From contig CADCTD010000166.1 in NCBI GenBank assembly GCA_902805545.1, positions 1 through 38,832 of the forward strand: a DNA stretch of 38,832 bases. Reading direction: 5' to 3'. Origin of the DNA: an uncultured Craurococcus sp. (lineage in GTDB: Bacteria; Pseudomonadota; Alphaproteobacteria; Acetobacterales; Acetobacteraceae). How positions within the stretch are numbered: the stretch's first letter is position 1; every line of letters begins with the position of its first letter. The notes below the pieces were generated by a model that was not told the origin of the DNA, did no database searches, and saw only the letters and a program-made list of their open reading frames with translations. Of the stretch, positions 1 through 36,886 are shown piece by piece. The position numbers were made by a program, and so were the translations under genes.

Positions 1-241
<241 letters not shown>

Positions 242-339
242 TCATTGGTTCGGCGTCCGGTCGCTGCCCGGGCGGTCTGCCCCGGCGCGGTCCCGTCCGC
301 CATTGTTGACGACGAGTGTCAGGCGGCCGACCGGGTGGA

Positions 340-651
340 TCAGGCGGCCTTGGCGACGGAAGGGTTGTCGAGGATGCCCATGATGTCGGACTCCTTCATG
401 ATGAGGAGCTCCTCGCCATCGAGCTTCACCTCGGTGCCCGACCACTTGCCGAACAGGATGCGGTCGCCGGCCTTCACGTCGAGCGGGCGCATCTCGCCCT
501 TGTCGTTCAGCGTGCCGCTGCCGACGGCGATCACCTCGCCTTCCTGCGGCTTCTCCTTGGCGGTGTCGGGGATGATGATGCCGCCGCGGGTCTTCTCCTC
601 GGCCGTCACGCGACGGACGAGAACGCGGTCATGCAGGGGACGGAAGCTCAT
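340..651 (-). CDS. groES: GroES (Hsp10) co-chaperonin
   Basis: 103 residues, the usual length, starting [14 protein letters not shown]. The mobile loop that docks on GroEL is visible around residues 18-34 ([17 protein letters not shown]), followed by the glycine- and acid-rich roof segment (GEVIAVGSG) and the conserved C-terminal [17 protein letters not shown] stretch. It caps the GroEL ring during ATP-driven folding in the cytoplasm. The ATG is preceded by a strong AGGAGAGG ribosome site. It is the first gene of the groESL operon, and the two CIRCE operators upstream indicate repression by HrcA, the regulator that binds CIRCE in other bacteria. hrcA itself is not in this window. Confidence 0.98.
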
Positions 652-717
652 ATGCGGTCCTCTCCTGGCCTATTCTCAAGGAATGGGTCCCCCCGCCGGG
701 AGGCGCCAGCGGGACCG

Positions 718-744
718 CTAGCACTCACCCCGGAGGAGTGCCAA
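718..744 (-). promoter_or_regulatory. CIRCE operator 1 (groESL, at the transcription start)
   Basis: An inverted repeat CTAGCACTC - 9 bases - GAGTGCCAA, matching the CIRCE consensus TTAGCACTC-N9-GAGTGCTAA with the exact 9-base spacer. It covers the transcription start expected from the promoter at 747-775 and lies about 65 bases ahead of the groES ATG, the usual place for HrcA repression. Confidence 0.92.
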
Positions 745-746
745 GC

Positions 747-775
747 GATCTAGGGCAGGCTCGCGCGGGCGTCAA
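747..775 (-). promoter_or_regulatory. groESL promoter (-35 TTGACG, -10 TAGATC)
   Basis: Read on the minus strand: -35 TTGACG (770-775), a 17-base spacer, then -10 TAGATC (747-752), placing the start near 740 inside CIRCE 1. The -35 is preceded by C, giving CTTGAC, so it could also be read by the alphaproteobacterial heat-shock sigma factor RpoH, whose -35 is CTTGA-like. Which sigma factor uses it cannot be settled from sequence. Confidence 0.65.
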
Positions 776-782
776 GGGATTT

Positions 783-809
783 GCAGCACTCTCGGAGTGC
801 GAGTGCCAA
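783..809 (-). promoter_or_regulatory. CIRCE-like operator 2 (upstream of the -35)
   Basis: A second inverted repeat, GCAGCACTC - 9 bases - GAGTGCCAA, with the same 9-base spacer and a right arm identical to that of operator 1. Its left arm departs from consensus at the first three bases. It sits just upstream of the -35 element, its centre about 65 bases from the centre of operator 1, so the promoter lies between two HrcA-type sites. Confidence 0.72.
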
Positions 810-929
810 CCCATTGAAATCCAACATTCTTGTTGCAACCCATCCGGAAAGACGTGGCAAGCTTCGCGTTGCACAGGCGGAGGGAAACGTCGGCCGCAAC
901 GGCTGGCACCAGAGAAAGGATCATGTTGC

Positions 930-1202
930 GTGCTGTACAGCCTCGAGCGCTTCGTCCGCATCCCCGACTGGCGGCTCACCACCGCCGAGATCCTCTACCA
1001 CATGCCGGACCATCCCGGCGTGCTGCAGACCTTCGTCTGGCAGAAGGTCGACCACGCCCCGGCCTTCCCGGAACTCTCGCGCTTCCTCGACTTCTGGCGC
1101 CGCGAGATCGAGGGGCCGCTGCACTCCGTCCGCGTCGCCTCCGCCGCGCTGACGCGCCCGGCCGAGCTGCGCTTCGCCAACGGCCAGTTCATCCTGCACT
1201 GA
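930..1202 (+). CDS. usg: Usg family protein
   Basis: A 90-residue protein starting at a GTG nine bases after an AAGGA ribosome site. The body (RLTTAEILYHMPDHP, QTFVWQKVDHAP, FPELSRFLDFWRREI, LHSVRVA, ELRFANGQFILH at the C-terminus) matches the small alphaproteobacterial Usg family, first noted beside tryptophan genes; its biochemical role is not established. Length agrees with the family. No signal peptide or membrane segment is visible, so it is probably cytoplasmic. It is divergent from groES across about 280 bases. An in-frame upstream extension back to 738 would run through both CIRCE sites and lacks family similarity, so the GTG start is preferred. Confidence 0.87.
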   Translation: MLYSLERFVRIPDWRLTTAEILYHMPDHPGVLQTFVWQKVDHAPAFPELSRFLDFWRREIEGPLHSVRVASAALTRPAELRFANGQFILH

Positions 1203-1223
1203 CCGGCGCCGGCGGCCCGGGCG

Positions 1224-1895
1224 CTACTCCTCCAGCGCCCGCCCCGCGCGGTGCCGGCGCAGCAGGGCGAAGCCGATCGCCACCGAGCCGGCGAGCAGCA
1301 CGGCCGAGAGGCCGAGCTGCCAGGCGCCGTCCACCCGCACGCCCTTGCCGAGCAGGGCGAAGACCAGCGTCTGCGGCAGGTAGCCGATCGCCGAGGCGGC
1401 GAGGAAGGGCAGCAAGGCGATTCCCGCCATCCCCGCCAGCAGGTTGAGCGCCAGGTTGTTGCCGAGGGGCAGCAGCCGGAGCGCCAGGGTCGCATTGAAG
1501 GGGCTGGCCGCCAGCAGGTCCCGCAACGGCCGGAGGCGCCGCCCGAAGCGCCCGGCCAGCCGCCGCTGCGCCCAGCCGCGCCCCACCAGCCGCGCCCAGA
1601 GGAAGGAGACCGTGCAGCCGAGCAGCTGCGCCAGCAGCGCGAGCCCGGTCCCCGCCACCGCGCCGAAGGCATAGCCGCCGAGGAAGGCGACGCCCTGGCG
1701 CGGGATCCCCACCGCCGTCGCCGCCATCCCGACGATGAGGAAGATCGCCTCCCCCCAGAGCCCCTGCCCGCGGATGGTGCGGTCCACCCATTCCGTCCCG
1801 AGCAGCCCGCCGAGCGCCCTGAGCAGCAGCCCCGCCGCCACCAGCCCCGCCGCCAGCACCAGCAGCTTGGCGACCGCCCTCGCCCGCTCGCTCAC
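1224..1895 (-). CDS. TVP38/TMEM64 family (VTT domain) membrane protein
   Basis: 223 residues, an integral inner-membrane protein with about five or six hydrophobic segments. The first spans residues ~10-30; the family core lies around residues 60-110, including GIPRQGVAFLGGYAFGAVAG and the following helix LLAQLLGCTVSFLWARLVGR, then an amphipathic stretch rich in Arg (AQRRLAGRFGRRLRPL). This pattern is that of the TVP38/TMEM64 (DedA-related) superfamily, some members of which move lipids across membranes; the substrate here is unknown. Translation starts at a GTG that overlaps the stop of the upstream glycosyltransferase (GTGA, 1892-1895), so the two are translationally coupled and may share a lipid-linked role, which is inference. 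Confidence 0.85.
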   Translation of the reverse strand: MSERARAVAKLLVLAAGLVAAGLLLRALGGLLGTEWVDRTIRGQGLWGEAIFLIVGMAATAVGIPRQGVAFLGGYAFGAVAGTGLALLAQLLGCTVSFLWARLVGRGWAQRRLAGRFGRRLRPLRDLLAASPFNATLALRLLPLGNNLALNLLAGMAGIALLPFLAASAIGYLPQTLVFALLGKGVRVDGAWQLGLSAVLLAGSVAIGFALLRRHRAGRALEE

Positions 1896-2677
1896 TCCTC
1901 GACCACCGGGCGGGAGCCGCGGCGCTGCAGCCAGGCGACGCCCAGGAGGTCGAAGATGGAGACCGCCAGCCGGTCCAGCGTCCCGTAGTTGGAGCGCCCG
2001 CGCACCCGTGGCCGGTGGTTCACCGGCTCGCTCACCACCAGCCCGCCCTGGCGCAGCACGAGGGCCGGCAGGAAGCGGTGCATGTGGTCGAAATGCGGCA
2101 GCGCGAGGAAGAGGGCGCGGGGGAAGACCTTGAGCCCGCAGCCGGTATCCGGCGTCGCATCGCCGAGCAGCCGGGCACGGATGCGGTTGGCGATGCGGCT
2201 CGAGCGCCGCTTCACCCAGCTGTCCCGCCGCGTCACCCGGTGCCCGGCCACCAGCACCGGCCGGGCCTGCCGCTCTCCCTGGGCCCGTGCCAGCAGCCGC
2301 GGTATGTCGGCCGGGTCGTTCTGCCCGTCGCCGTCGAGGGTGGCGATCCAGGCGCCGCGGGCCGCCTTCACCCCGGTGATGACCGCCGCCGACTGCCCGC
2401 AGCTCGCCCGGTGGCGGAGATGCCGGAGCGGCGCCTGGCCCGCCGCCGCGCGCAGCGCCTCCGGCGTGCCGTCGGTCGAGCCGTCGTCGACATAGACGAT
2501 CTCATGCGCCATGCCGGCCAGCGCCGCCTCGATCTCGGCGACCAGCGGCGCGATGTTCGGCGCCTCGTTCCGCACCGGGATGACCACGGAGATCAGGGGA
2601 GGGATGGCCGGGGCCGCCACGGGGGTACCTGGGGTGGCACCGGCCGGGTCACCGGCCGCGTCGGGGGCGGTCTGCAT
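1892..2677 (-). CDS. Family 2 glycosyltransferase, DPM1/dolichyl-phosphate mannosyltransferase-like
   Basis: 261 residues from the chosen ATG (MQTAPDAAGDPAG), starting with a Pro/Ala-rich leader and then a GT-A fold: ISVVIPVRNE at the nucleotide-sugar site, VDDGSTDGT, and the metal/sugar motif LDGDGQNDP. Downstream lie DTGCGLKVF and the RPRVRGRSNYG segment typical of enzymes that load sugar onto a polyprenyl phosphate. No membrane helices are present, as in DPM1-type enzymes that lean on partner membrane proteins. The in-frame extension to 2773 adds an Arg-rich stretch without similarity and nearly meets the divergent ctaA, so it was not used. The overlap with the TVP38-family gene suggests joint action at the membrane. 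Donor and acceptor are unknown. Confidence 0.88.
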   Translation of the reverse strand: MQTAPDAAGDPAGATPGTPVAAPAIPPLISVVIPVRNEAPNIAPLVAEIEAALAGMAHEIVYVDDGSTDGTPEALRAAAGQAPLRHLRHRASCGQSAAVITGVKAARGAWIATLDGDGQNDPADIPRLLARAQGERQARPVLVAGHRVTRRDSWVKRRSSRIANRIRARLLGDATPDTGCGLKVFPRALFLALPHFDHMHRFLPALVLRQGGLVVSEPVNHRPRVRGRSNYGTLDRLAVSIFDLLGVAWLQRRGSRPVVEE

Positions 2678-2775
2678 CGCGGCGTTGCGGTAGCAGCCGC
2701 GCGAGCGCGCCGCAAGCCGCGCCGATTGTTCCGCCTGGGCGGCGTTCGGTTGATGTCGCGGCCGCCTTGCCACCC

Positions 2776-2781
2776 TATACT
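2776..2781 (+). promoter_or_regulatory. Candidate -10 (TATACT) just before ctaA
   Basis: TATACT is a good -10 hexamer in an otherwise GC-rich gap. It ends only six bases before the ctaA ATG, which would put the transcription start at or next to the start codon, giving a leaderless or nearly leaderless mRNA. No strong ribosome site precedes the ATG, which fits. The nearest -35-like hexamer (TTGATG, 2750-2755) is 20 bases away, longer than ideal. Confidence 0.35.
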
Positions 2782-2787
2782 AGGCCA

Positions 2788-3861
2788 ATGCCTTTCGATG
2801 CACCCTCCGCCCGCCCGGTCGTGAGCCGGGCGGCCCCCCGCGCCATCGGCCTCTGGCTGCTCGGCGTGGCCGCCATGGTCTGGGTCATGGTCGCCCTCGG
2901 CGGCGCCACCCGCCTCACCGGCTCAGGCCTCTCCATCATGGAATGGGCGCCGCTCTCCGGCACCCTGCCGCCGCTCTCCGATGCCGAGTGGCAACGCCTC
3001 TACGACCTCTACCGCACCATCCCGCAATACCAGCTCGTCAACCAGGGCTTCGGGATCGAGGGCTTCAAGCAGATCTTCTGGCTGGAATGGGCCCACCGGC
3101 TCTGGGGCCGGCTGATCGGCCTCGCCTATGCCCTGCCGCTCGCCTGGTTCTGGCTGCGCGGCCGCATTCCGGCCGGCTACAAGGGCCCGCTCGTCCTGCT
3201 GCTGGTGCTCGGCGGCCTGCAGGGCGCGATCGGCTGGTTCATGGTCGCCTCCGGCTTCGAGGCGGACCGCACCGCCGTCTCCCCCTACCGGCTGGTGATG
3301 CATCTCAGCCTGGCGCTTGGCCTCTTCGCAGCGCTGACCTGGACCGGGCTCGGCCTGCTGCGCCCCCGCCCGGCCGAGGCGCCGCCCGCCGCCGGCAGCA
3401 TCCGTCGCCAGGCCAAGGCCGCAGCCTGGCTGCTGGCCGGGGCGATGCTCGCCGGCGGCTTCGTCGCCGGCAACCGCGCCGGGCTCGACTACAACACCTT
3501 CCCGTTGATGGAGGGCCAGCTCGTCCCGCCGGGCTACTGGCGGCTCGACTCCGCCTGGGCGAACCTCACGCTGAATGTCGCGGCGGTGCAGTTCAACCAT
3601 CGCCTGCTGGCGAGCCTCGCGGCGCTGGCCGCGCTCGGCGCTGCCTTCACCGGCTGGCGCCGTCTGCCGCCCGGCTTCGCCCGCAGCGCCTGCCTGGGCC
3701 TCGGCGGGGTGGTGATGCTGCAATACGGGCTCGGCGTCGCCACGCTGCTGCATGCCGTGCCGGTCTGGCTCGGCACGCTGCACCAGGCGACGGCGGTGCT
3801 GGTGCTGACCGCAGCGCTGCTCGCGCTGCACGGGCTTCGCGCCCCGGAGAGACGACCATGA
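2788..3861 (+). CDS. ctaA: Heme A synthase (COX15/CtaA family)
   Basis: 357 residues with eight predicted membrane helices. It oxidises the C8 methyl of heme O to the formyl group of heme A for aa3-type cytochrome oxidase in the inner membrane. Visible family marks: GGATRLTGSGLSIMEW after helix 1, the EWAHRLWGR heme-ligand histidine before helix 2, LQGAIGWFMVASGF, the second-half histidines in QFNHRLLA and GTLHQATAVL, and the internal twofold repeat. The ATG at 2788 is preferred over an upstream TTG in the same frame at 2767. Its stop overlaps the start of the PAS-array kinase (ATGA, 3858-3861). ctaB and the oxidase subunits are not in the window, so this gene is separated from the cta cluster here. 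Confidence 0.96.
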   Translation: MPFDAPSARPVVSRAAPRAIGLWLLGVAAMVWVMVALGGATRLTGSGLSIMEWAPLSGTLPPLSDAEWQRLYDLYRTIPQYQLVNQGFGIEGFKQIFWLEWAHRLWGRLIGLAYALPLAWFWLRGRIPAGYKGPLVLLLVLGGLQGAIGWFMVASGFEADRTAVSPYRLVMHLSLALGLFAALTWTGLGLLRPRPAEAPPAAGSIRRQAKAAAWLLAGAMLAGGFVAGNRAGLDYNTFPLMEGQLVPPGYWRLDSAWANLTLNVAAVQFNHRLLASLAALAALGAAFTGWRRLPPGFARSACLGLGGVVMLQYGLGVATLLHAVPVWLGTLHQATAVLVLTAALLALHGLRAPERRP

Positions 3862-6800
3862 TCGAAGGCGAGGCCGCCACCGCCCGGCGGGCGGACCAGG
3901 GGGCACTGCTGCAGCTGATCCTCGACAGCATGCGGCACGGCATCGCCCTGTTCGATGCCGAAGGCCGGCTGGTGGCGGCAAACGAGCTGGCGCGGCGGCT
4001 CGGCATCTTTCCCGGCGAGACCCTGCCGACCGGCATGACCATCATGGCGATCGTCGACGCCCAGGCCGCCGCCGGCGAGTTCGGCGATGCCGAGACCACC
4101 GCGCGGCACGTCGCTGCCGCCCGCGCCTTCGACCGCAGCATCCCGAACCGCTACAGCCGCACCCGCCCCGACGGCACCGTGCTGGAGATCACCTCCGACC
4201 CGACGCCGGATGGCGGCTTCATCGTCACCTACAGCGACGTCACCGCACGGACCCGGGCCGAGCAAGCCGCCCGCGACCGCGCCGCCATGCTGACGGCCGC
4301 GCTCGATTCGATGCAGCACGGCTGCCTGATCTACGGGCCTGACGACCGCCTCCTCGCCGCCAACGCCCTCGCCGCCTCCTGCGCTGGCCTGGCGCCGGAG
4401 GAGCTGGTCCCCGGCCGCTCCCGCGCCGAGCTCATCCGCCTGCAGCACGCCCACGGCACCTTCGGCGGCGGCGAGGCAGCCACGGCCGAGCGGGACCGGC
4501 TGATCAACCGCCCGCATGGCCGCTACAGCGAGTTCACCCGCACCGCGCCGGACGGCAGGGTGATCAAGGTCGCCTCGAACCCGATCGGGCCCGACGGCGC
4601 CGGCGGCCATGTCGTCACCTACACGGACGTCACCCCCCTCGCCCAGGCCGAGGCCGCCTCCCGCGCCCGGGCCGAACTCCTGCAGACCATGCAGGAGACG
4701 ATGAAGCACGGCATCGCCCTGTTCGGCCCCGACCAGCGGCTGGTCGTCGCCGACGACCTCGCCGCCGAGCTCGCCGGCCTCCGCCCGGGGGAAATGCCGC
4801 CCGGCGCGACCACCGCCGAGATCGCCGCCATCCAGCTCTCGCGCGGCCTGTTCGGCGAGGGGCCGGAGGCCACACGGGCCGCCGGGGTCGCCTCCCGCCA
4901 CGACCGCCGCTTGCCCCGCTTCGTCCGGCGCCGCCTGGCCGATGGCCGCATCGTCGATTCCCGCTCCGACCCGACGCCCGATGGCGGCTTCGTCATCACC
5001 TGGTCAGACGTCACGCCGCTGATCGAGGCGGAGCGCGCGGCCGAGGCCCGCGCCGCGACGCTGCAGGCCATGATCGACAACATGCGGCACGGCATCACGC
5101 TGTTCGATGCCGCGGGCCGCGTCGTCGCCACCAACCAGCTGATGCACCAGCTCGCCGGCCTGCCGGCCGGGACGGTGGCGCCGGGCCGCCACATCGAGGA
5201 GCTCATCCGCGCCCAGTGCGAGGCCGATGCCTCGGGCGACGCGGCGCTCAATGCGCTGTACGCCGCCCAGGCCCTCGCCGCCGACCGCTCGAAGCCGCAG
5301 CGCCACGTCCGCCCCTCGCGCGACGGGCGGATGCTCGACGTCGCCTCCGACCCGATGCCCGATGGCGGCTTCGTCATCACCATCACCGACATCACCGCCC
5401 TCACCCGCGCCGAGGCGGAGCTGCGCCAGCGCGCCGAGCTGCAATCGGCGATGCTGAAGGCGATCCGCCACGGCATCGCCCTCTACGACGCGGACTACCG
5501 GCTGATCGCCGTGAACCGGATCTTCGGCGGGCCGGAGAACCGCCCCTTCCCCGAGGGCCGGACGCCGATGCCGCCCGGGACGCCGATGGCCGACATCCTG
5601 CGCCGCCAGGCCGAGCTCGGCGGCCTCGGCCCCGAGCCGGAGAAGGAGCTCGAGCGGCTGCTCGCGCTCGACCGACGACTGTCGCACCGCTACATGCGCC
5701 GCACCACCGACGGGCGGCTGCTCGAGGTCCATTCCGACCCGATGCCGGCTGGCGGCTTCGCAATCACCTTCTCAGATGTCACCGCCCTTGCCGCCGCCGA
5801 GGCCGAGGCCGAATCGCGTGCCGCCATGCTGCGCGCCGCGCTCGACACCATGCGCCACGGCTTCATGCTGTTCGGGCCGGACCATCGGCTGCGCGCCTCC
5901 AACCGCCTCGCCACCGAGATCGGCGGGCTGTCGGCGGAGGAGCTGCAGCCCGGCATCCCCTTCGAAGAGCAGCTCCGCCTGCACCATGCGCGCGGCATGT
6001 ACGGCTCGCCACCGCGCAGCGACGAGACGCTGGCCCGGCTCCTGGCGGCCGACCGCAGCCAGTCCTGGCGCCGCACCCGCCGCATGCCGGGCGGCGAGGT
6101 GATCGAGATCTTCAGCGACCCGACGCCGGACGGCGGCTTCGTCGTCACCTTCACCGACATCACCGCCCGCGCCGAGGCCGAGGCCGAGGCGAAGCGCCGC
6201 GCCAATGCGCTGCAGATCACCCTCGACAGCGTCCGCCACGGGATCGCCCTCTACGGGCCGGACCGGCGGCTGATCCTCGCCAACCGCCTGGCCGGGCCGC
6301 ATCATGGCGTGCCGGACCTGCCGGAGCGTGCCGGCACGCTGTTCGACGACCTCCTCCGCGAGCAATACGCCCTCGGCTTCTTCGGCCCGGAGCCGGAGGC
6401 GAAGCAACGCTTCACCACGGCGCTCGGCCGCGACCGCTCCATCCCGGCGCAGCTGCAGCGCCGCATGCCGGACGGGCGGGTGATCGACATCGCCAGCGAC
6501 CCGACGCCCGAGGGTGGCTTCGTCATCACCCAGTCCGACGTGACCGCGCTCGAGCATGCCAAGGCCGATGCCTCGGACCGCGCCGCCATGCTCCAGCTCA
6601 TGCTGGACAACATCCAGCATGGCATCTCCTATTTCGGCCCGGACCGCCGGCTGACCGCCTTCAACCGCCTGGCCGAGGATCTGGCCGGGGAAGGCGGCAG
6701 CGTCCCGCTGCGGCGCGGCGCGACGCTCGAGGAGCTGGTGGCCGAGATCGCCGGCACCGGCGCTTACGGCGATGCCGCGCAGACCGCGTCGATGACCGAG

Positions 6801-8813
6801 GCACGGCTCGGCCTCGACCGCAGCAGGCCGCACCGCTACCTGCGCCGCACCGGCGCCGGGCGGCTGGTCGAGGTCTCGTCCAACCCGGCGCCGAATGGCG
6901 GCTTCGTCGTCACCCATTCCGACGTGACCGACCTCCTGGAGGCCCAGGCCGCTGCTGCCGAGCGGAGTGCGCAGCTCCAGGTGATGCTGGAGACCATGCG
7001 GCACGGCATCGCGCTGTTCGACCGCGACCGGCGGCTGGTGACCGCCAATGCGCTGGCCGCCACCCTCAACGGGCTCGACCAACGGGCGTTCGAGCCAGGC
7101 CGCGCCTGGGGCGAGGTGGTCGCGGACATCTCCGCCGCCGGCCTGCTCGATCCCGGGGAGATAGGGCGGATCATCGCCGACGACTACTCCCTACCGCTCC
7201 GCCTCGTCCGGCCCGGGGGGGATGGCCGGGTGATCGAGGTCACCACCAACCCGACGCCGGAGGGCGGCTTCGTCGCCACCTATACCGATATCACCGCCCT
7301 CACCCAGGCCGAGGCCGCGGCGCGCGAGCGGGCGGGCGTGCTGCAGGTGATGCTGGAGAATACCCGTCACGGCATCTGCTACTACGGCGCCGACCGGAGG
7401 GTCATCGCCGCCAATGGCCTCGCCGCCGAGTTCGGCGAATACAGCCCGGGCGCCCTCCGCCCGGGCCGCAGCATCGAGGAGCTGGTCGAGGACCAGCTGC
7501 GCCGCGAGGTCGCCGGCGAGGTGAGCGTCGAGACGGCGCAGCTCGCCCTCACCATGGATCGCAGCCAGCCCGCCCGCTACACCAGGCCGACCCGGGACGG
7601 CCGGATCATCGAGGTCACCTCCGACCCGACGCCGGGCGGCGGCTTCGTCGTCACCACCGCCGACATCACTCCCCTGGTCCGCGCCGAGCAGGAGGCGCGC
7701 AGCCGCGCCGCCATCCTCCAGGCGATGCTCGACAACAGCCGCCAGGGCATCATCCTCTTCGACCTGGAAGGCCGGGTCGTCGCCGCCAACGGCATCGCCG
7801 CCGGGCTGACCGAGCTGCCGCCCGAGGCGATCTGGCCGGGCCTCGACATCCGCGCGCTGATCGCCCGGCAGGTCGAGATCGGGCATATCCCGCGGGACGG
7901 CTTCGCCGATGCCCTGGCCCTGGTGCCGCGGGACCGGCCCTGGCCGGTGCCCTCCATGCGGCGCCGGACCCTCACCGATGGCCGCATCGTCGAGGTGCTG
8001 AGCGATGGCGTGGCGGGCGTCGGCTACATCCGCATGTACCGCGACATCACGGAGGAGCTCCGCGCCCGCGCCGAGCTGGAGCGCGCCCGTGACGCGGCCG
8101 AGACGGCGAACCGCGCCAAGTCCCGCTTCCTCGCCACCATGAGCCATGAGCTGCGCACGCCGCTCAACGCCGTCATCGGCTTCTCCGAGGCCTATCTGAT
8201 CGACAAGGACCCGGCCCGCCGGCTCGACTACGTGCAGTCGATCCACGAGGCGGGGCGCCACCTGCTCTCGCTGATCGACGACATCCTCGATGTCACCCGG
8301 TCGGAGACGACGGGCTTCCAGATCACCGAGGGCCAGGTCGCGGTGCTGCCGCTGGCCGAGGGCGCGGTGCAGATGATGCAGGCGACGGCGGCGACGGCAG
8401 GCGTCACCCTTGGGGCCAGCCTGCCGCCGCACCTGCCGCTGCTCCGCGCCGACGAGCTGCGGCTGCGCCAGGTGCTGCTGAACCTCCTCGCCAATGCGGT
8501 GAAATTCACCCCCGCCGGCGGCAGCGTCACCCTCGGCGCCGAGGTCGCGCCGGAGGGCGACCTGGTGCTCCGGGTCAGCGACACCGGCATCGGCATCGCC
8601 CCGGGGGACATCTCGCGGGCCTTCGAGCCCTTCACCCAGCTCGATTCGTCCCTGTCGAGACGCTTCCCCGGCTCCGGCCTCGGCCTATATCTGTCGCGGG
8701 CGCTGGCCGAGGCGCAGGGAGCCACCCTCCGCCTGGAGAGCACGCCCGGCCAGGGCACCACCGCCTTGCTGCGCTTCCCGAAAGACCGCCTGCTGGCCGA
8801 ACTGGCCGCCTGA
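3858..8813 (+). CDS. Soluble sensor histidine kinase with eleven tandem PAS_7-type domains
   Basis: 1651 residues, about four times a typical kinase. After 24 residues come eleven copies of one PAS module (first at residue 25, period 122-130). Each opens with (M/I/V)RHGI-LFxxDxRLxAxN, passes a DRSxPxRY-RRxxDGR segment, ends GGFVVT-(S/T)D(V/I)T, and joins the next by a helix rich in AEAxAxxRAxxLQ. A HisKA domain follows with phospho-acceptor His1430 (MSHELRTPLN), then the HATPase_c N-box (Asn1546), G1 (DTGIGI, Asp1575) and G2 (GSGLGLYLS). There is no signal peptide, membrane helix or receiver domain, so it should be a cytoplasmic autokinase passing phosphate to a separate protein; no response regulator gene lies nearby. 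The ATG overlaps the ctaA stop by four bases and tldD follows 22 bases on. The ligand is unknown. Confidence 0.96.
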   Translation: MIEGEAATARRADQGALLQLILDSMRHGIALFDAEGRLVAANELARRLGIFPGETLPTGMTIMAIVDAQAAAGEFGDAETTARHVAAARAFDRSIPNRYSRTRPDGTVLEITSDPTPDGGFIVTYSDVTARTRAEQAARDRAAMLTAALDSMQHGCLIYGPDDRLLAANALAASCAGLAPEELVPGRSRAELIRLQHAHGTFGGGEAATAERDRLINRPHGRYSEFTRTAPDGRVIKVASNPIGPDGAGGHVVTYTDVTPLAQAEAASRARAELLQTMQETMKHGIALFGPDQRLVVADDLAAELAGLRPGEMPPGATTAEIAAIQLSRGLFGEGPEATRAAGVASRHDRRLPRFVRRRLADGRIVDSRSDPTPDGGFVITWSDVTPLIEAERAAEARAATLQAMIDNMRHGITLFDAAGRVVATNQLMHQLAGLPAGTVAPGRHIEELIRAQCEADASGDAALNALYAAQALAADRSKPQRHVRPSRDGRMLDVASDPMPDGGFVITITDITALTRAEAELRQRAELQSAMLKAIRHGIALYDADYRLIAVNRIFGGPENRPFPEGRTPMPPGTPMADILRRQAELGGLGPEPEKELERLLALDRRLSHRYMRRTTDGRLLEVHSDPMPAGGFAITFSDVTALAAAEAEAESRAAMLRAALDTMRHGFMLFGPDHRLRASNRLATEIGGLSAEELQPGIPFEEQLRLHHARGMYGSPPRSDETLARLLAADRSQSWRRTRRMPGGEVIEIFSDPTPDGGFVVTFTDITARAEAEAEAKRRANALQITLDSVRHGIALYGPDRRLILANRLAGPHHGVPDLPERAGTLFDDLLREQYALGFFGPEPEAKQRFTTALGRDRSIPAQLQRRMPDGRVIDIASDPTPEGGFVITQSDVTALEHAKADASDRAAMLQLMLDNIQHGISYFGPDRRLTAFNRLAEDLAGEGGSVPLRRGATLEELVAEIAGTGAYGDAAQTASMTEARLGLDRSRPHRYLRRTGAGRLVEVSSNPAPNGGFVVTHSDVTDLLEAQAAAAERSAQLQVMLETMRHGIALFDRDRRLVTANALAATLNGLDQRAFEPGRAWGEVVADISAAGLLDPGEIGRIIADDYSLPLRLVRPGGDGRVIEVTTNPTPEGGFVATYTDITALTQAEAAARERAGVLQVMLENTRHGICYYGADRRVIAANGLAAEFGEYSPGALRPGRSIEELVEDQLRREVAGEVSVETAQLALTMDRSQPARYTRPTRDGRIIEVTSDPTPGGGFVVTTADITPLVRAEQEARSRAAILQAMLDNSRQGIILFDLEGRVVAANGIAAGLTELPPEAIWPGLDIRALIARQVEIGHIPRDGFADALALVPRDRPWPVPSMRRRTLTDGRIVEVLSDGVAGVGYIRMYRDITEELRARAELERARDAAETANRAKSRFLATMSHELRTPLNAVIGFSEAYLIDKDPARRLDYVQSIHEAGRHLLSLIDDILDVTRSETTGFQITEGQVAVLPLAEGAVQMMQATAATAGVTLGASLPPHLPLLRADELRLRQVLLNLLANAVKFTPAGGSVTLGAEVAPEGDLVLRVSDTGIGIAPGDISRAFEPFTQLDSSLSRRFPGSGLGLYLSRALAEAQGATLRLESTPGQGTTALLRFPKDRLLAELAA
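3930..8060 (+). repeat. Eleven-unit tandem PAS module array inside the kinase gene
   Basis: The RHG-type opening codons fall at 3930, 4311, 4701, 5082, 5463, 5850, 6231, 6612, 6996, 7362 and 7737, giving steps of 381, 390, 381, 381, 387, 381, 381, 384, 366 and 375 bases. Units are diverged at DNA level except for short shared stretches around the GGF and RHG motifs, so the array is old rather than a recent slippage product. Unit 11 is the most divergent: RQG replaces RHG, and GVGYIRMYRDIT replaces the PDGGFVVT-DVT ending. Confidence 0.93.
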
Positions 8814-8835
8814 TCACCCCTTGGAGAGCCCCACT

Positions 8836-10278
8836 ATGCCGCTCGACACGCCGCTTTCGGTCACCGATCGCCTTTTCTTCGCCGAGGAAGGCCTCGACCG
8901 CGCCGGCGCGGAGCGCCTGGTCCGCGAGGCGCTGGCCGGCGCCGATGACGGCGAGCTCTTCCTCGAATACCGCGAGAGCGAGGGCATCTCGCTCGACGAT
9001 GGCCGCATCCGCGCGGCCAGCTTCGACGCCACGCGCGGCTTCGGCCTGCGCGCCGTCGCGGGCGAGGCGGCGGGCTATGCCCATTCCGGCGAGATGTCGG
9101 AGGCCGCGCTGAAGCGGGCGGCGGAGACGGTCGGGGCCGTCCGCCACGGCCATTCCGGGACGCTCGACCTCGCCCCGCGCGCGACCAATGCGCGGCTCTA
9201 TGCCGACGGCAACCCGCTGACGCTGATGGATTTCGGCGCCAAGACCGCCCTCCTCGGCGAGATCGACGCCTTCGCCCGCGGGCGCGATCCGCGCGTCGCG
9301 CAGGTGATGGCCTCCATCTCCGGCGAGTGGCAGGCGGTGCAGATCATCCGCGCGGACGGCACGCGCGTCGCCGATATCCGCCCCCTCGTCCGCCTCAACG
9401 TCGCGGTGGTGGTGGAGCAGGACGGGCGGCGCGAGACCGGCAGCCACGGGCTCGGCGGCCGCTTCGACTATGCCCGCATCCTCGCCGCCCCGGTCTGGCA
9501 GGCCGCCGTCGACGAGGCGCTGCGCCAGGCGCTCGTCAACCTCGACAGCATCCCGGCGCCTGCCGGGGAGATGGAGGTGGTGCTCGGCCCGGGCTGGCCG
9601 GGGATCCTGCTGCACGAGGCGATCGGCCATGGGCTCGAGGGCGACTTCAACCGCAAGAAGACCTCGGCCTTCGCCGGGCTGCTCGGCCAGCGGATCGCGG
9701 CGCCCGGCGTCACGGTCATCGATGACGGCACCATGCCGGACCGCCGCGGCAGCCTCACCGTCGATGACGAGGGCACGCCCTCCAACCGCACCGTGCTGAT
9801 CGAGGACGGCATCCTGACGGGCTTCCTGCAGGACCGGCAGAATGCGCGGCTGATGGGCGTCGCCTCCACCGGCAACGGCCGCCGCCAGAGCTACGCCCAC
9901 ATCCCCATGCCGCGCATGACCAACACGGTGATGCTGGGCGGCCAGCATCCGCCGGAGGAAATCCTCCGCAGCGTGAAGCGCGGCCTCTACGCGGTGAATT
10001 TCGGCGGCGGTCAGGTCGACATCACCAGCGGGAAGTTCGTCTTCAGCGCCTCCGAGGCCTATCTGGTCGAGGACGGCAAGATCGGCTCGCCGGTGAAGGG
10101 CGCGACGCTGATCGGCAACGGCCCGGACAGCCTCACCAAGGTGGCGATGGTCGGCAACGACATGGCACTCGACCCCGGCATCGGCACCTGCGGCAAGCAG
10201 GGCCAGGGCGTGCCGGTCGGCGTCGGCCAGCCGACGCTGAAGCTCGCCGGGCTGACGGTCGGCGGCACGGCCGTATGA
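8836..10278 (+). CDS. tldD: TldD metalloprotease
   Basis: 480 residues, the standard TldD length. TldD with TldE(PmbA) forms a zinc peptidase that degrades unstructured peptides and matures some modified peptides. The active-site helix HEAIGHGLE is at residues 260-268 (HExxxH), and the C-terminal GTCGKQGQGVPVGVGQP signature is present. Substrate-groove features such as DDEGTPSNRTVLIEDG and NGRRQSYAHIPMPRMTN also match. The ATG at 8836 follows GGAGAG; an in-frame TTG at 8821 is less likely. It lies 22 bases after the kinase gene and overlaps the GNAT gene by four bases (ATGA). The tldE/pmbA partner is not in the window. Confidence 0.95.
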   Translation: MPLDTPLSVTDRLFFAEEGLDRAGAERLVREALAGADDGELFLEYRESEGISLDDGRIRAASFDATRGFGLRAVAGEAAGYAHSGEMSEAALKRAAETVGAVRHGHSGTLDLAPRATNARLYADGNPLTLMDFGAKTALLGEIDAFARGRDPRVAQVMASISGEWQAVQIIRADGTRVADIRPLVRLNVAVVVEQDGRRETGSHGLGGRFDYARILAAPVWQAAVDEALRQALVNLDSIPAPAGEMEVVLGPGWPGILLHEAIGHGLEGDFNRKKTSAFAGLLGQRIAAPGVTVIDDGTMPDRRGSLTVDDEGTPSNRTVLIEDGILTGFLQDRQNARLMGVASTGNGRRQSYAHIPMPRMTNTVMLGGQHPPEEILRSVKRGLYAVNFGGGQVDITSGKFVFSASEAYLVEDGKIGSPVKGATLIGNGPDSLTKVAMVGNDMALDPGIGTCGKQGQGVPVGVGQPTLKLAGLTVGGTAV

Positions 10279-10745
10279 CCATCCGCCAGGCCCGGCCCGG
10301 GGAGGCGCCGGTCCTGGCGGCCATCGTCGAGCGGGCCTATGGGCCCTGGGTGACCGTCATCGGCCGCCGCCCGATGCCGATGGAGGACGACTACGCTGGC
10401 CGCATCGCCGCCGGCGAGGCCTGGGTGCTGGAGGAGGCCGGCGTGCCCGTCGCCCTCGTCGTCATCGAGCAACACCCGGACCACCTGATGCTCGACAACA
10501 TCGCCGTCGACCCTGGCCGCCAGGGCCGCGGCGAGGGCCGGGCGCTGCTCGATTTCGTCGAGGCCGAGGCGGCGCGGCGCGGCCTGCCGGAGGTGCGGCT
10601 CTACACCAACACCCTAATGGAGCGGAACATCGCCCTCTACGCCCGGCGCGGCTATGCCGAGACCGGGCGCGAGGTGCAAAAGGGCTTCAGCCGCGTCTTC
10701 ATGGCGAAGCCGGTCAGCGGTTCCGCCGCCACAGCTCCTCGCTGA
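10275..10745 (+). CDS. GNAT family N-acetyltransferase
   Basis: 156 residues with a single GNAT fold. The acetyl-CoA pyrophosphate loop is seen as RQGRGEGRALL (residues ~78-88) after the LDNIAVDP strand, and the C-terminal part has the usual ERNIALYARRGYAETGRE segment in which Tyr closes the active site. Family members acetylate an amine of a small molecule, antibiotic or protein N-terminus; the acceptor cannot be read from sequence. It starts inside the tldD stop (ATGA) and ends 32 bases into the convergent TspO-family gene, so it closes the ctaA-kinase-tldD unit. Confidence 0.88.
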   Translation: MTIRQARPGEAPVLAAIVERAYGPWVTVIGRRPMPMEDDYAGRIAAGEAWVLEEAGVPVALVVIEQHPDHLMLDNIAVDPGRQGRGEGRALLDFVEAEAARRGLPEVRLYTNTLMERNIALYARRGYAETGREVQKGFSRVFMAKPVSGSAATAPR

Positions 10746-11244
10746 GCAGCGCCGCGAAGCCGATCCAGGCGGCATAGGGCACCGCCATCCAGGCCGCCGG
10801 CGGATCGACCTTGCGCGCCGCATCGACATAGGCGACGGCATTGGCGACCGTCACCCCCGCCTCCACCGTCGCCGCGCCGAGCTGCCGCTTCCCGAAGCCG
10901 AGCCAGAGCCAGGCGGCGTTGAGCACCTGGATGCCGAACCAATGCGCCAGCGCCCGCTCCCGCGCCGGGCCCCGCGGCGCCGTCCAGATGCGGAGGCCGG
11001 AGAGAGTCAGCAGCGCATAGAGCGGCCCCCAGATGGCGAAGGCCGGGTCGGGCGGGTTGAAGGGCGGCTTCTCCAGCCGCTCGTAGTCGCGGCGGATGCG
11101 CCCATGCACCGGCGAGGGCGAGTAGCGCGCCGACAGCAGCGCGGAGGCCAGCACTGCCCCGCCCGTCACCAGCAGGCCGAGGCCGATATCCCGCTCGCGC
11201 CCGCCCCGCGGCACCGCCGCCTGCCGTATCAGCGAACCATCCAT
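10714..11244 (-). CDS. TspO/MBR family membrane protein
   Basis: 176 residues with about five hydrophobic helices. Family marks are KPPFNPPDPAFAIWGPLYAL (loop 1 and helix 2), LNAAWLWLGFGKRQLG, and the C-terminal AVPYAAWIGFAALLSEELW. TspO proteins bind porphyrins and other hydrophobic ligands in the outer or inner membrane and modulate oxygen- or tetrapyrrole-linked regulation in alphaproteobacteria. Two in-frame upstream starts exist (ATG at 11259, TTG at 11274), but the ATG at 11244 is the only one with a proper ribosome site: GGAGG eight bases upstream, lying inside the codons of the longer version. The 3' end overlaps the GNAT gene. A tie to the heme genes in the window is possible but unproven. 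Confidence 0.85.
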   Translation of the reverse strand: MDGSLIRQAAVPRGGRERDIGLGLLVTGGAVLASALLSARYSPSPVHGRIRRDYERLEKPPFNPPDPAFAIWGPLYALLTLSGLRIWTAPRGPARERALAHWFGIQVLNAAWLWLGFGKRQLGAATVEAGVTVANAVAYVDAARKVDPPAAWMAVPYAAWIGFAALLSEELWRRNR

Positions 11245-11337
11245 TGCCCGCGCCTCCATCCCGACGGATTGCAAACCGGAGGATGCGCCGCCGGTTCCAC
11301 GCGGTCAGGGCTGGTGCCGCGGCGGCACAGGCCCCGC

Positions 11338-11538
11338 TCAGCCCTGCCGCCTGCCGGGGTGGCTCACTGGATCGACATGCGGAGCCTGCAGGCGCTGCCC
11401 GAGATCCAACACGGGCCGGTCGAGATCGCCGCCGCGCCTGGCGAGGCCGGCCCGACTGCCGACGACGCGGACCTCTCCCTCCGGCTCGAAATGCCGGGCG
11501 ATGATGCGCGTCACCGCCGCGATCTCCTCCGGCTGCAA
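11338..11538 (-). pseudogene. Decayed MNT-type nucleotidyltransferase after gshA
   Basis: 66 residues starting MQPEEIAAVTRIIARHF and reaching the nucleotidyltransferase core as VVGSRAGLARRGGDLD, which resembles the GSRxxGxxRxxSDLDL metal-binding motif of small MNT-domain proteins. The second Asp of DxD is present but Ser is replaced by Gly, and the downstream part that should run over 40 more residues collapses to DLGQRLQAPHVDPVSHP and stops. The intact domain is about 100 residues, so this looks like a remnant with an internal deletion or frameshift. It lies 18 bases after gshA on the same strand. It could instead be a very short divergent protein; I think decay is more likely. Confidence 0.5.
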
Positions 11539-11556
11539 CCGGACCGGGGACGGGCC

Positions 11557-12903
11557 TCAGAGCTCGGCATGCAGCAGCGCCCGCGCCGCATCGCCGCCCC
11601 AGGCCCGGTCGTAGAGGTGGAGCAGCCGGTCCGCCTGGGTCAGGCCGCTGCCCACGATCTCCTCGAGCGGGGCGAGAAAGACCTCCTCGCCGAGCCCGCG
11701 CGCGCGCAGCCCGTCGCGGGCGATGGCGAGCACGTCGCGCGCCACATCCTGCACGCGCCGGCCGCGGATGGTGGCGGAGAGCGCCTCGCGCGGCACCGCG
11801 GCCCGCAGCGCGCGGATCTCCTCGAGCGACCAGTCGCGGATGAGCGCCGCGGCCGCCTTCTGCGCCGCGTCGTCGTAGAGCAGCCCGACCCAGAGCGCCG
11901 GCTGCGCCACGATCATCGCCGGGCTGCCGACATCGGAGCCGCGCATCTCGAGGAAGCGCTTCAGCCGCACATCGGTGAAGGCGGTCGTCACATGGTCGGC
12001 GAAGTCGCCCATCGTCGCCCGCTCGCCGGGCAGGATGCCGAGCCGGCCGTCGAGGAAGTCGCGGAAGCTGGCGCCGGCCGCATCCAGCCAGCGCCCCTCG
12101 CGCATGACGAAATACATCGGCACGTCGAGCAGCCAGTCGGCGAAGCGCTCGAAGCCGAAGCCATCCTCGAAGACGACGCCCGGGATGCCGGTGCGCGCGC
12201 CGTCCGTATCCGTCCAGACCTGCGCGCGCATCGTGCGGAAGCCGTTCGGCCGGCCCTCGGTGAAGGGCGAGTTGGCGAAGAGCGCCGTCGCCACCGGCTG
12301 CAGCGCGAGCGAGACGCGCAGCTTCTCGACCATGTCGGCCTCGTCGCCGTAGTCGAGATTGGCCTGCACCGTGCAGGTGCGCTGCATCATGTCGAGGCCG
12401 AGCGAGCCCACGGTCGGCATGTAGCGCCGCATGATGGCGTAGCGGCCTTTCGGCATCCACGGCATCTCGGCGCGCGAATGGGTCGGGTGGAAGCCGAGCG
12501 CGGCGAAGCCGAGCGCCATCGGCCCCGCCACCTGGTGAACCTCGCGCAGATGGGCCTGCAGCTCCTGATGCGTCGCATGCAGGTCGGCCTGGAGCCCGCC
12601 CGAGAGCTCGAGCTGCCCCGCCGGCTCCAGGCTGATGGAGGCGCCGCCGCGCTTCAGCCCGATCGGCTTGCCGTCGTCGAGGATGGGCGCCCAGCCGAGC
12701 GCCGCCAGCCCCTCGAGGATGGCACGGATCCCGGCCTCGCCGTCATAGGCGGGGGTGGCGTAGCCCGCGCGGAAGAAGCCGAATTTCTCGTGCTCGGTCC
12801 CCACCGTCCACTCGCCGCGCGGCTTGCTGCCGGCGGCGAACCACCCGGCCAGCTGACGCCGGTCGGTGATGGGCGTCAGATCCGCTTCGCCAGGATTGGA
12901 CAT
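11557..12903 (-). CDS. gshA: Glutamate-cysteine ligase (plant/alphaproteobacterial type)
   Basis: 448 residues. It joins glutamate to cysteine using ATP, the first and controlling step of glutathione synthesis in the cytoplasm. The sequence shows the GCS2-type core: VGTEHEKFGF near residue 35, then SISLEPAGQLELSGG, the TCTVQANLDYGDEADM segment, ALFANSPF, and HVTTAFTDVRLKRFLEMRG. The length and the ExEKF/EPGGQ-like motifs fit the plant-type group rather than the enterobacterial GshA. It is read with rsmE, 66 bases downstream of the rsmE stop. gshB is not in the window. Confidence 0.95.
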   Translation of the reverse strand: MSNPGEADLTPITDRRQLAGWFAAGSKPRGEWTVGTEHEKFGFFRAGYATPAYDGEAGIRAILEGLAALGWAPILDDGKPIGLKRGGASISLEPAGQLELSGGLQADLHATHQELQAHLREVHQVAGPMALGFAALGFHPTHSRAEMPWMPKGRYAIMRRYMPTVGSLGLDMMQRTCTVQANLDYGDEADMVEKLRVSLALQPVATALFANSPFTEGRPNGFRTMRAQVWTDTDGARTGIPGVVFEDGFGFERFADWLLDVPMYFVMREGRWLDAAGASFRDFLDGRLGILPGERATMGDFADHVTTAFTDVRLKRFLEMRGSDVGSPAMIVAQPALWVGLLYDDAAQKAAAALIRDWSLEEIRALRAAVPREALSATIRGRRVQDVARDVLAIARDGLRARGLGEEVFLAPLEEIVGSGLTQADRLLHLYDRAWGGDAARALLHAEL

Positions 12904-34671: not shown

Positions 34672-35469
34672 CTAGCGTCCCTTGAAGACCGGCTTCCGCT
34701 TCTCGTTGAAGCTGCGGATGCCCTCGATGCGGTCCTCGGTGCCGACCAGCTGGTTGTAGGCCTCGATCTCGAAGCGGAGCGCGGTGCGGATGTCCATCTG
34801 CAGGCCGAAATGGATCGACTTCTTCGCCTGGCGGATGGAGAGCGGGGCATTGGCGGCGATGGCCGCCGCGGTCTCCATCACGGCGGGCCAGAGCTCGTCG
34901 CTCGTGCAGACGCGGTTGAGGATGCCCCAGTCGGCGGCCTGGCGGGCGGTGAAGGGCTTGCCGGTGAGGATGATCTCCTTGGCGCGGCGCTCGCCGACGA
35001 CGCGCGGCAGGGTCTGGGTGCCGCCGGCGCCGGGCATGATGCCGATGGTCACCTCGGTGAGGGCGAAGCGGGCCTCCTCCACGCCATAGGCGAAGTCGGA
35101 GGCGAGGACCATCTCGAGGCCGCCCGCATAGGCATGGCCGCTGACCGCCGCGATGACCGGGATGGGGCAGTCGATCTGGGCCCAGAAGGCGCGCTCGAAG
35201 ATCTCGTGCTGGCGGCGCCAGGCCTCGTCGGTCATGCCGTTGCGCTCCTTCAGGTCGCCCCCGCCGCAGAAGGCGCGCTCGCCGGCGGCGGCGAAGACGA
35301 CGCAGCGGATGTCGCCCGGATCCTGGAGGAGGCCGGACCAGACGGCGTGGAGGTCGAGGCCCATCTGGGTGTTCAGCGCGTTCGAGACCTGCGGGCGGTT
35401 GAGGCGCAGGACGAGGACATGGGGGCTCGGGGTTTCGAGGCTCAGGGTCTCGAGCGGGGCAAGCTTCAC
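34672..35469 (-). CDS. Enoyl-CoA hydratase/isomerase family protein
   Basis: 265 residues with the crotonase fold. The oxyanion hole segment is FAAAGERAFCGGGDLKE; both catalytic Glu positions are kept, in AGGLEMVLASDFA and LTEVTIGIMPGAGGTQ. The C-terminal NEKRKPVFKG is typical of true hydratases. It adds water to trans-2-enoyl-CoA in fatty-acid, amino-acid or aromatic breakdown. The GTG at 35467-35469 is preferred because GAGGAGG lies nine bases upstream; an in-frame TTG at 35493 lacks a site. No other beta-oxidation genes are next to it. Confidence 0.93.
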   Translation of the reverse strand: MKLAPLETLSLETPSPHVLVLRLNRPQVSNALNTQMGLDLHAVWSGLLQDPGDIRCVVFAAAGERAFCGGGDLKERNGMTDEAWRRQHEIFERAFWAQIDCPIPVIAAVSGHAYAGGLEMVLASDFAYGVEEARFALTEVTIGIMPGAGGTQTLPRVVGERRAKEIILTGKPFTARQAADWGILNRVCTSDELWPAVMETAAAIAANAPLSIRQAKKSIHFGLQMDIRTALRFEIEAYNQLVGTEDRIEGIRSFNEKRKPVFKGR

Positions 35470-35818
35470 GGGCGGAGTCCTCCTCGGGGCCAAGGGTGGA
35501 CGCTGCCGGGGCGGTTGTCAGCCCGTCCGCAGCGGGAACGGGGCAAGTGCGGCTTCCATGTGCCGCTCTGGCTGGTGCCGGCCTGCCAGGCGGCGATGGC
35601 GACGAGGATGCGGATGGGCGGCTGGCGGATCCTCCGCAGCATGGGATCGCGCATTACCCCGCTGACGCCGGTGGGCCGCTTCCAGGCGGAGACGGGCAGG
35701 GCGGATCGTCGGCGTCGGCGCGGCGGCTGATGGCGGTGCGCTGGGGGTCGCCGCCAGCCAGTCCCGTCCTCGCCCGGGCGGTGACCCGGCCGGCGGTGGC
35801 GGCGATCGGCGCGGCCGC
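35470..35818. other. Non-coding interval, 349 bases
   Basis: Frames on both strands stay open here for long stretches, as expected at this GC content, but none resembles a protein or has a ribosome site. It contains the promoter region of the enoyl-CoA hydratase gene and the 3' flank of the ATP-grasp gene. I see no hairpin with a U-run. Confidence 0.55.
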
Positions 35819-36772
35819 CTACGGGGTGCCGGGCCGGTTCCGCTGAGCCTCGGCCCAGATCCTGCCGAGCGCGAAATCCTCCTCGATGGAGCCGAGAGGG
35901 ACGGAAGACCCGCCGGAGTAATGGGTCATCTCGCCGAAGCGGGGCTCGCCGCCGATCAGGTAGAAGTCGATGCGGACCGCGTCGAACCCGGCGCCGAGGC
36001 GCATGGCGAGGTCGCAAAGCCTGACCGCTTCCGGCGGCGGGCCCGGATAGTCCGGGCAGTCGGCGGGGCGCCAGCGGCCGAGGGGCAGCGGGGCGAGCGT
36101 CACCGGGTCGTAGAACAGGTCGCTTTTCCGCTCCGTGAAGCGGTTCAGATGGGCCTGCAGCAGGTACGGGCGGCCGCCGAAGAGATAAAGCTTGTAGTCC
36201 TCCGGCGGGCCGCCGGCCGGGCCGGGGAGGAACTCCTCGACCAGCAGGCGCGGGCGGATGCTGCGGTAGCCCCATTCGCCGGTGCGCTCGCCGTAATTCT
36301 CGGCAAGCCAGGACTGCGCCGTGTCGAGGATGCGGGCGCGGCAGGCAATCCTCTTGTCGGAAACGAGGATGTTGTAGCCGCAGCCGTGGTTGGCCTTGAG
36401 GACGAAGCGGTTGGGCAGCGAGTCCCAGGGGATGTCGGCGGCACGGTCCCAGACGCCGATCAGCGGGGTGATGGCGCGCAACCCGATCCGCTCCGCGGCC
36501 CAGGGGCGCACGGCGAGCTTGTCGAGCGTCAGCGGGATCAGCGGGTTGCGGTCGTTGAGAATCTTCCAGGCGATGCGCTCGTTGAAGCTCCGCGGGTTGC
36601 GGAGGTTCGGCGCGTAGCCGAGGGCATCGCGCATCATCCGGGACCGGTGGCGGCGGAGGCGTAGGCGGTCGAGCCATTCGACGTGGCCGGCGGCTTGGTG
36701 GAAGGCCTCGCGCAACAGGGCACGGCCGGGGAGCCGAGGTCGGCCAAGTGAGAGAGTGGCTGTTTCGGTCAT
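35819..36772 (-). CDS. TupA-like ATP-grasp protein
   Basis: 317 residues with the form of the TupA-like ATP-grasp family, linked to cell-envelope polysaccharide and teichuronopeptide assembly. Landmarks are LRNPRSFNERIAWKILNDRNP, LDKLAVRPWAAERIG, NRFVLKANHGCGYNILVSDK (ATP-binding loop), PRLLVEEFL, EDYKLYLFGGRPYLLQ, and the metal-binding end DAVRIDFYLIGGEPRFGEMTHYSG. It should join an amino group or acid to a carrier in the cytoplasm with ATP. The start is the ATG at 36770-36772. It is divergent from modB and isolated from other polysaccharide genes in the window. Confidence 0.87.
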   Translation of the reverse strand: MTETATLSLGRPRLPGRALLREAFHQAAGHVEWLDRLRLRRHRSRMMRDALGYAPNLRNPRSFNERIAWKILNDRNPLIPLTLDKLAVRPWAAERIGLRAITPLIGVWDRAADIPWDSLPNRFVLKANHGCGYNILVSDKRIACRARILDTAQSWLAENYGERTGEWGYRSIRPRLLVEEFLPGPAGGPPEDYKLYLFGGRPYLLQAHLNRFTERKSDLFYDPVTLAPLPLGRWRPADCPDYPGPPPEAVRLCDLAMRLGAGFDAVRIDFYLIGGEPRFGEMTHYSGGSSVPLGSIEEDFALGRIWAEAQRNRPGTP

Positions 36773-36886
36773 TTGTCCCCCAAAGTGTGCCTGCTTCACG
36801 CGGGCGCTACGCCTGACGGGGATGGGACGTATGCCGTATTGCCTGCACCATTGCGTGTGGCGCAGTGCAACAGGAGATGGTGGCGG

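Follow-up and report, generated by a model that had tools for sequence, protein, structure and literature searches.

The stretch of DNA analyzed here (hereafter, the window) comprises 38,832 nucleotides of an uncultured Craurococcus sp. of the Acetobacteraceae (contig CADCTD010000166.1). The gene considered, at 3858-8813 on the forward strand, encodes a soluble histidine kinase with eleven consecutive PAS_7 modules. This kinase represents one of the lengths found for a gene that occupies a conserved slot between the heme A synthase gene ctaA and the metallopeptidase-like gene tldD, with 0 to 16 modules detected across the slot; it is not the singular object that a first-pass annotation of the window had made of it. 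All eleven modules belong to one type, the kinase-proximal type D, and, as judged from sequence comparison, arrays in this slot grow mainly by copying of D-type modules. A tentative explanation, to which we give somewhat less than even chances, is that module duplication has built up a helical rod of PAS domains, kept in register, that would feed several inputs into one kinase and act as an integrator. The earlier observation is confirmed, and the earlier interpretation is borne out in part.

The kinase and its eleven modules

The open reading frame is complete and has the coordinates originally assigned to it, from an ATG at 3858 to a stop codon ending at 8813, and its product has 1651 residues. 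Pfam recognizes in it eleven PAS_7 stretches, one HisKA dimerization and phosphoacceptor domain (residues 1420-1484; 8115-8309, forward strand; PF00512, E=3.3e-18), and one HATPase_c domain (residues 1532-1643; 8451-8786, forward strand; PF02518, E=2e-27). The modules lie, all on the forward strand, at 3921-4265 (97.9 bits), 4302-4652 (65.2), 4695-5033 (71.7), 5073-5414 (97.2), 5454-5801 (75.9), 5841-6182 (89.2), 6222-6560 (60.4), 6603-6947 (72.6), 6987-7313 (73.2), 7353-7691 (74.7), and 7728-8066 (59.8). Each of them singly exceeds the Pfam gathering score for PAS_7 (PF12860; 27 bits), with 59.8-97.9 bits, which bears out the count of eleven modules ahead of a single HisKA-HATPase unit. Linker included, a module has 122-131 residues. 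The eleventh, which adjoins the kinase, is the most divergent, with 27-37% identity to the other ten. The consensus said to unite the modules is real but loose: ten of the eleven open with HG (RHG in seven, QHG in two, KHG in one) and the last with RQG, while all eleven end in D-[VI]-T.

The kinase core retains its motifs. H-E-L-R-T-P is invariant in all 15 aligned kinase sequences, the window's included, as are the N, D-x-G-x-G, and G-x-G-L-G columns; we take these columns to be the motifs named H, N, G1, and G2. By its HisKA and HATPase_c domains with intact motifs the protein is classed as a HisKA-type kinase, with predicted autokinase and phosphotransfer activity. It has no membrane segment by hydropathy, the highest 19-residue value being 1.25 vs. 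2.36 in the neighboring CtaA. Receiver domains are absent from its Pfam matches and from the matches on the window's contig (65 receiver matches lie elsewhere in the genome), and no response regulator neighbors the kinase on the contig. In all these respects the first description of an orphan soluble kinase was accurate.

Pairwise identity among the modules is 27-47% in protein (mean 39%) and 49-66% in DNA, and because of this divergence the array is, on sequence grounds, old and neither a recent duplication nor an assembly error. For the same reason Tandem Repeats Finder reported no array in the kinase gene. Assembly duplication had been named as a possible refutation, and repeats within a draft genome of 192 contigs could invite that suspicion. 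We consider its probability next to negligible: apart from the divergence itself, the modules have positional orthologs in congeners (11 modules in five of the seven, 10 in two), and arrays of 11-12 modules are present in G235, G380, and G337, assemblies listed as one or two contigs.

Variation of module number in a conserved slot

A search with the kinase core over 397 genomes of the same family found matches in at least 144 genomes at E<=1e-58. Two sets of loci were examined, one of 76 kinases, the window's included, and one of 40. Modules were counted with a profile grown from those of the window; weak or foreign PAS domains may be missed by it, and a count of zero means that none was detected. 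In the first set, ctaA and tldD both flank the kinase in its own orientation in 67 of 76 cases; four kinases have ctaA only, four tldD only, and one neither. The window belongs to the doubly flanked group, with ctaA before and tldD after the kinase gene, all three on one strand. After exclusion of four arrays cut by contig ends, the remaining 72 carry 3-16 modules: 27 have four, ten have 10, and 13 have 11; at least eight are present in 35 of the 72, and 16 in one. The commonest short form has four modules, A-B-C-D. Both flanks were observed for 29 of the 40 kinases in the second set, in which 0 to 8 modules were detected; the two zero counts with both flanks present are in G165 and G050.

The slot can also be followed in genomes without a strong match to the kinase. 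Among 24 genomes that had no strong kinase match and were checked for ctaA at E<=1e-30, ctaA was found in 17, the other seven giving no match at this threshold. In 12 of these 17, tldD lies within about 190 nucleotides after ctaA; in two, the gene after ctaA encodes a more distant kinase, which in one case has a single weak module; and in three, neither tldD nor a kinase was seen in the stretch examined. A separate scan with general kinase peptides gave ctaA-tldD flanks in one of 80 loci among the matches listed; this locus, L159, from a named metagenome-assembled genome, has two modules in the slot. A search of plasmids gave no matches at E<=1e-60.

Two further loci of the survey deserve mention. 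G012 has, outside the ctaA-tldD slot, an additional four-module copy of the kinase (L058, C1:193000-210000) besides its slot copy (L059). In the draft genome G007 (L054, open reading frame 227-5329) the match to the kinase core is split in two near residue 1602, perhaps through a frameshift or insertion.

Module types and growth of the arrays

Profiles for the types A, B, C, and D were built from 26 four-module arrays, and leave-one-out assignment placed 101 of 104 modules correctly. Outside the window's genus, 36 arrays have five or more modules; of their 249 modules at position 4 or beyond, 239 are D-like, 8 C-like, and 2 A-like, and growth is therefore ascribed mainly to copying of D-type modules. 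Twenty-nine of these longer arrays start with A-B-C and seven otherwise. Within the window's own genus, the 86 modules comprise 81 D-like, four A-like, and one B-like, and none of the arrays has an A-B-C start. The chain in the window is homogeneous because surplus modules are nearly all of type D and the genus lacks distinct A, B, and C modules; the homogeneity noted at first reading thus has an evolutionary explanation. Since neighboring genera show intermediates, with A followed only by D in G289, G047, and G134 of genus g41, and one other array, in G206, is all D, we infer that four modules are ancestral and that A-B-C was lost in the window's genus.

Traces of recent duplication are visible elsewhere in the family. 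The most similar modules of an array are often adjacent, as in G275 (74%), G128 (70%), G317 (63%), and G408 (60%), with 71-82% identity in DNA. G003 is an exception, its top pairs being the non-adjacent modules 1 and 6 (63%) and 1 and 9 (61%).

In the tree of the kinases, the long arrays fall in two parts, one of which also holds the four-module kinase from outside the slot in G012 (G012a). A single origin of all long arrays is disfavored by the approximately unbiased test (p-AU 0.0168 for a one-clade constraint with G012a left out), with the reservation that the long groups were chosen after the tree was seen and that its deep branches are weak. With G012a kept, p-AU is 0.0105, an unfair comparison because a four-module kinase then lies within a long group. 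The tree, with 71 arrays scored, requires a minimum of four changes between long (seven or more modules) and short arrays, or five with G012a.

A possible, though doubtful, scenario built on these data is that of an evolvable sensor accordion. Whole D-type modules would be added or deleted in helical register and thereby tune sensitivity, threshold, or cooperativity; each copy would then acquire its own input, so that the array would record the signal history of the family.

Preservation of individual modules and their linkers

Comparison of close congeners shows that the modules are preserved individually. In G002 and G005, the best match of each module is the window module at its own position, at 70-85% identity, the runner-up reaching 37-51%. 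Homogenized repeats are ruled out for the window's genus, as same-position modules in these two genomes are far more alike than modules within an array. Correspondence extends in part to another genus: modules 3-10 of the window pair with modules 8-15 of the 16-module array in G085, in the same order and in both directions, though some of the margins are slim. The counterpart of module 3 is missing in G001 and that of module 10 in G004. The D-x-T motif is found in all eleven modules of the window, and D-x-T/S is retained in 537 of 572 modules.

Linkers were measured by alignment, counting from the D of D-x-T up to the G of the HG in the following module. Of 496 junctions, 489 have exactly 28 residues, or four heptads (five have other lengths and two are unmeasurable), whereas the span inside modules varies from 76 to 104 residues. 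Hydrophobicity along the linkers peaks at a period of 3.4-3.5. The distance from the D of the last module to the H-box histidine is likewise constant, at 34 residues in all 65 measurable kinases (11 are unmeasurable). AlphaFold2 models contain ordinary PAS folds linked by single helices, H120-142 and H249-271, with a mean predicted local distance difference test score of 89.9, and a 51-residue helix, H245-295, leading from the last PAS domain into the kinase. The solved structures that best match the PAS models include the tandem PAS proteins DosP, PpsR, FixL, NifL, and MmoS. For the C-terminal model (modules 10 and 11 with the kinase), the best matches are a WalK model, SB2F1, and YF1 (4gcz), and HK853, DivL, and GacS are also matched.

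The layout has parallels among characterized kinases. YF1, YHF, and FixL-type PAS kinases share the PAS-helix-HisKA arrangement and the heptad-spaced helical linker, but have one or two sensors with known chromophores, compared with eleven modules in the window kinase (PMC6798134). In such kinases the response varies with linker length with a seven-residue period, YHF, engineered with two PAS sensors in tandem, responds cooperatively to two signals, and regular spacing in PAS tandems points to signal integration (PMC6798134).

The integrator that we tentatively favor would work as follows. The protein would be the cytosolic histidine kinase of the ctaA-kinase-tldD operon, with a D-type PAS_7 module repeatedly duplicated in tandem. 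Two chains would run in parallel as a dimer; the state of each module would be handed to the next via the continuous helix; and the summed inputs would set kinase or phosphatase activity at the one HisKA domain. The length of such an integrator would change by whole modules, leaving the register unbroken. Sequence comparison shows that the surplus modules are of type D, that linker length is fixed, that D-x-T is kept, and that modules are preserved separately in close congeners. Of the roles proposed at first, integrator, long lever, and multivalent rod all stand as candidates.

Operon context

The gene ctaA (COX15) occupies 2767-3861 on the forward strand (PF02628, E=1.4e-98), and its stop codon shares four nucleotides with the kinase start (ATGA at 3858-3861). 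The same four-nucleotide overlap is seen in 58 of the 71 kinases with ctaA upstream, the window's counted, and for this reason the kinase looks like a member of a translationally coupled ctaA-kinase-tldD operon. The tldD-like metallopeptidase gene follows at 8821-10278 on the forward strand (PF19289, E=2.2e-68), its first listed start lying 7 nucleotides past the kinase stop; over 67 loci, the distance from the kinase stop to the first aligned TldD base has a median of 8 nucleotides and a range of -19 to 338. In a comparison of 20 loci, the order ctaA, kinase, tldD was found in 14, the other six having the kinase outside the slot or no kinase.

Downstream, a GNAT acetyltransferase gene (10275-10745, forward strand; PF00583, E=3.7e-13) overlaps tldD by four nucleotides. 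Beyond it, on the opposite strand, are a TspO gene and then a GCS2 ligase gene; the TspO/MBR gene, at 10717-11274, is convergent to the operon and lies near the heme A synthase gene. In six loci of genus g113 (L130, L133, L134, L144, L145, and L148), about 150 residues, an additional N-terminal part, separate the ctaA stop from the first PAS module.

Input, output, and related kinases

Given how closely the kinase gene is coupled to that of heme A synthase, respiratory state may be the input. For the output, DivJ, PdhS, and PleC kinases phosphorylate DivK and PleD. The core of the window kinase scores 208 bits against the TorS profile (its best), 181.1 against DivJ, and 171.8 against PdhS; it misses the curated cut-offs of 1000 for DivJ (NF050805) and 2000 for PdhS (NF041593). 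On the DivJ and PdhS models it stands above two hybrid kinases encoded in its own genome (146/102 and 122/112 bits), for both of which TorS is also the best model. This likeness is a hint, from profile scores, that DivK/PleD-like receivers elsewhere in the genome may serve as the output. The window kinase differs from the DivJ/PdhS/PleC group in its long PAS_7 array and in its ctaA-tldD operon.

The same group suggests another function for the array, that of a multivalent rod that would bind a scaffold or client protein through its modules, with copy number setting avidity or localization. A precedent is PleC, whose two PAS domains bind a disordered region of the scaffold PodJ, which alters PleC kinase activity (PMC8980812). 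Changes of D-x-T in either PAS domain of a PleC chimera abolish its response, which, according to the authors, lost colocalization could also explain (PMC8980812); by analogy, these results would support both an integrator and a protein-binding rod. The position of the core above the two hybrids on the DivJ and PdhS models agrees with the PleC parallel. On the other hand, 27-47% identity between modules makes it less plausible that a single binding site is repeated eleven times, and no candidate partner was found, although no search was aimed at partners. On balance we regard a binding rod as rather improbable.

NahK (ErcS', PA1976 of Pseudomonas aeruginosa) is the best NCBIfam match of the whole protein, with 316.8 bits over eight stretches, and has several PAS domains, three of them listed and predicted to bind heme, fatty-acid, and cytokinin ligands (PMC8694187). 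A NosP-associated kinase, that is, a NahK/ErcS' relative under control of a nitric oxide- and heme-binding FIST protein, might be proposed on this basis. The score is far under the curated 1500 (NF041831), however, and the domain model of the NahK/ErcS family gives the core 106 bits vs. 181 with DivJ. The NahK/ErcS' model describes a hybrid that includes a response regulator, and neither the window kinase nor the rest of its contig has a receiver match. NahK is co-cistronic with NosP (PMC11784011), whereas no NosP gene adjoins the window kinase; the genome's sole FIST match lies on contig C58, some 1 kb ahead of a different kinase match. Membership in the NosP/NahK group is ruled out by the low score, the lack of a receiver and of an adjacent FIST gene, and the core nearer to the DivJ model, and any regulation of this kind is very improbable. 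The C58 locus itself (35033-38699), with two receivers, the NosP-like FIST match, and a 582-residue kinase frame together, is possibly a nitric oxide-sensing kinase locus.

The same genome encodes a second PAS_7 tandem kinase, a hybrid with a receiver (L047; contig C94:22000-38000, open reading frame 7656-11279, forward strand). L047 and L065 (G001, C116) resemble the slot kinases in having four to five PAS_7 modules with 28-residue linkers, and differ in standing outside the ctaA-tldD slot and, for the C94 frame, in holding a receiver. Another contig of this genome, C149, has four closely spaced receiver matches at 10187-11726, with frames of 2103 and 870 residues, representing a multi-receiver protein or a frame break.

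Eleven does not set a record, since long PAS arrays occur in cyanobacterial and other kinases and reach 19 PAS domains in a single cyanobacterial kinase (PMC10468136; e.g., UniProt A0A1Z4MZL8). Those proteins are likewise histidine kinases with a very long PAS array, but the published counts sum all Pfam PAS families (PMC10468136), whereas the array in the window is of a single family.

Integrator or passive spacer

Several observations weigh against an integrator. The modules evolve faster than the kinase core: in three comparisons, a crude ratio of nonsynonymous to synonymous substitution rates (dN/dS) is 0.23-0.71 in modules vs. 0.12-0.25 in the core, which is why purifying selection is estimated to be weaker on the modules. 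Array length differs between close relatives, being 10 or 11 within the genus, and the exact number of modules is therefore not essential; some modules of G003, G004, and G007 have no clear counterpart in the window array. The linker length is common to control PAS_7 tandems outside the locus (28 residues in 19 of 24 junctions, the others being 21, 35, 42, 31, and one of -75 that looks like an artifact of overlapping hits). It is ruled out as a unique mark of the slot arrays and, while supporting helical coupling, fits a passive rod equally well. The single-chain AlphaFold2 models have predicted template modeling scores of about 0.5, and hence do not establish the relative placement of modules. 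The module profile gave two weak matches only among solved structures (E=0.0059 and 0.0096), and inspection by eye revealed no conserved heme or flavin ligand residue: Cys is commonest at no column of the module table, and His only at columns 17 and 87. As to the output, TorS outscores DivJ, all scores are far under the cut-offs, and the comparison involves two control kinases.

A natural rival is that the array is a passive spacer, either a stiff arm or ruler keeping the kinase at a distance from an anchor or a tolerated growth by duplication, with one or a few modules signaling. It would accommodate the spread of 0 to 16 detected modules within one slot, the absence of whole modules, even of all A-B-C, from some genera, the higher dN/dS of modules, and the in-register linkers shared with other PAS_7 tandems. 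A passive array is harder to reconcile with modules whose identities persist in close congeners, and to some extent in other genera, with the retention of D-x-T/S, and with dN/dS below 1 in every module. Overall we judge this rival quite possible but less probable than the integrator, which remains the reading that we prefer.

Significance

Long PAS kinases are already known; what we rate as the new aspect is an array of a single PAS type, variable in number, in one conserved operon slot, of which no account was found in searches of open-licence papers. How stacked sensors combine their signals is an open question, and the basis of signal integration in a designed two-sensor kinase still awaits elucidation (PMC6798134). 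The natural orthologs described here offer a length series for this question, with detected module counts of 0, 2, 3, and 4 and as high as 16 in one slot, together with arrays lacking A, B, or C and recent duplicates such as neighbors 74% identical in one genome. If the modules are active, the series would allow kinase output to be measured against the number of sensors; if they are passive, it would show that a large signaling protein can grow without effect.

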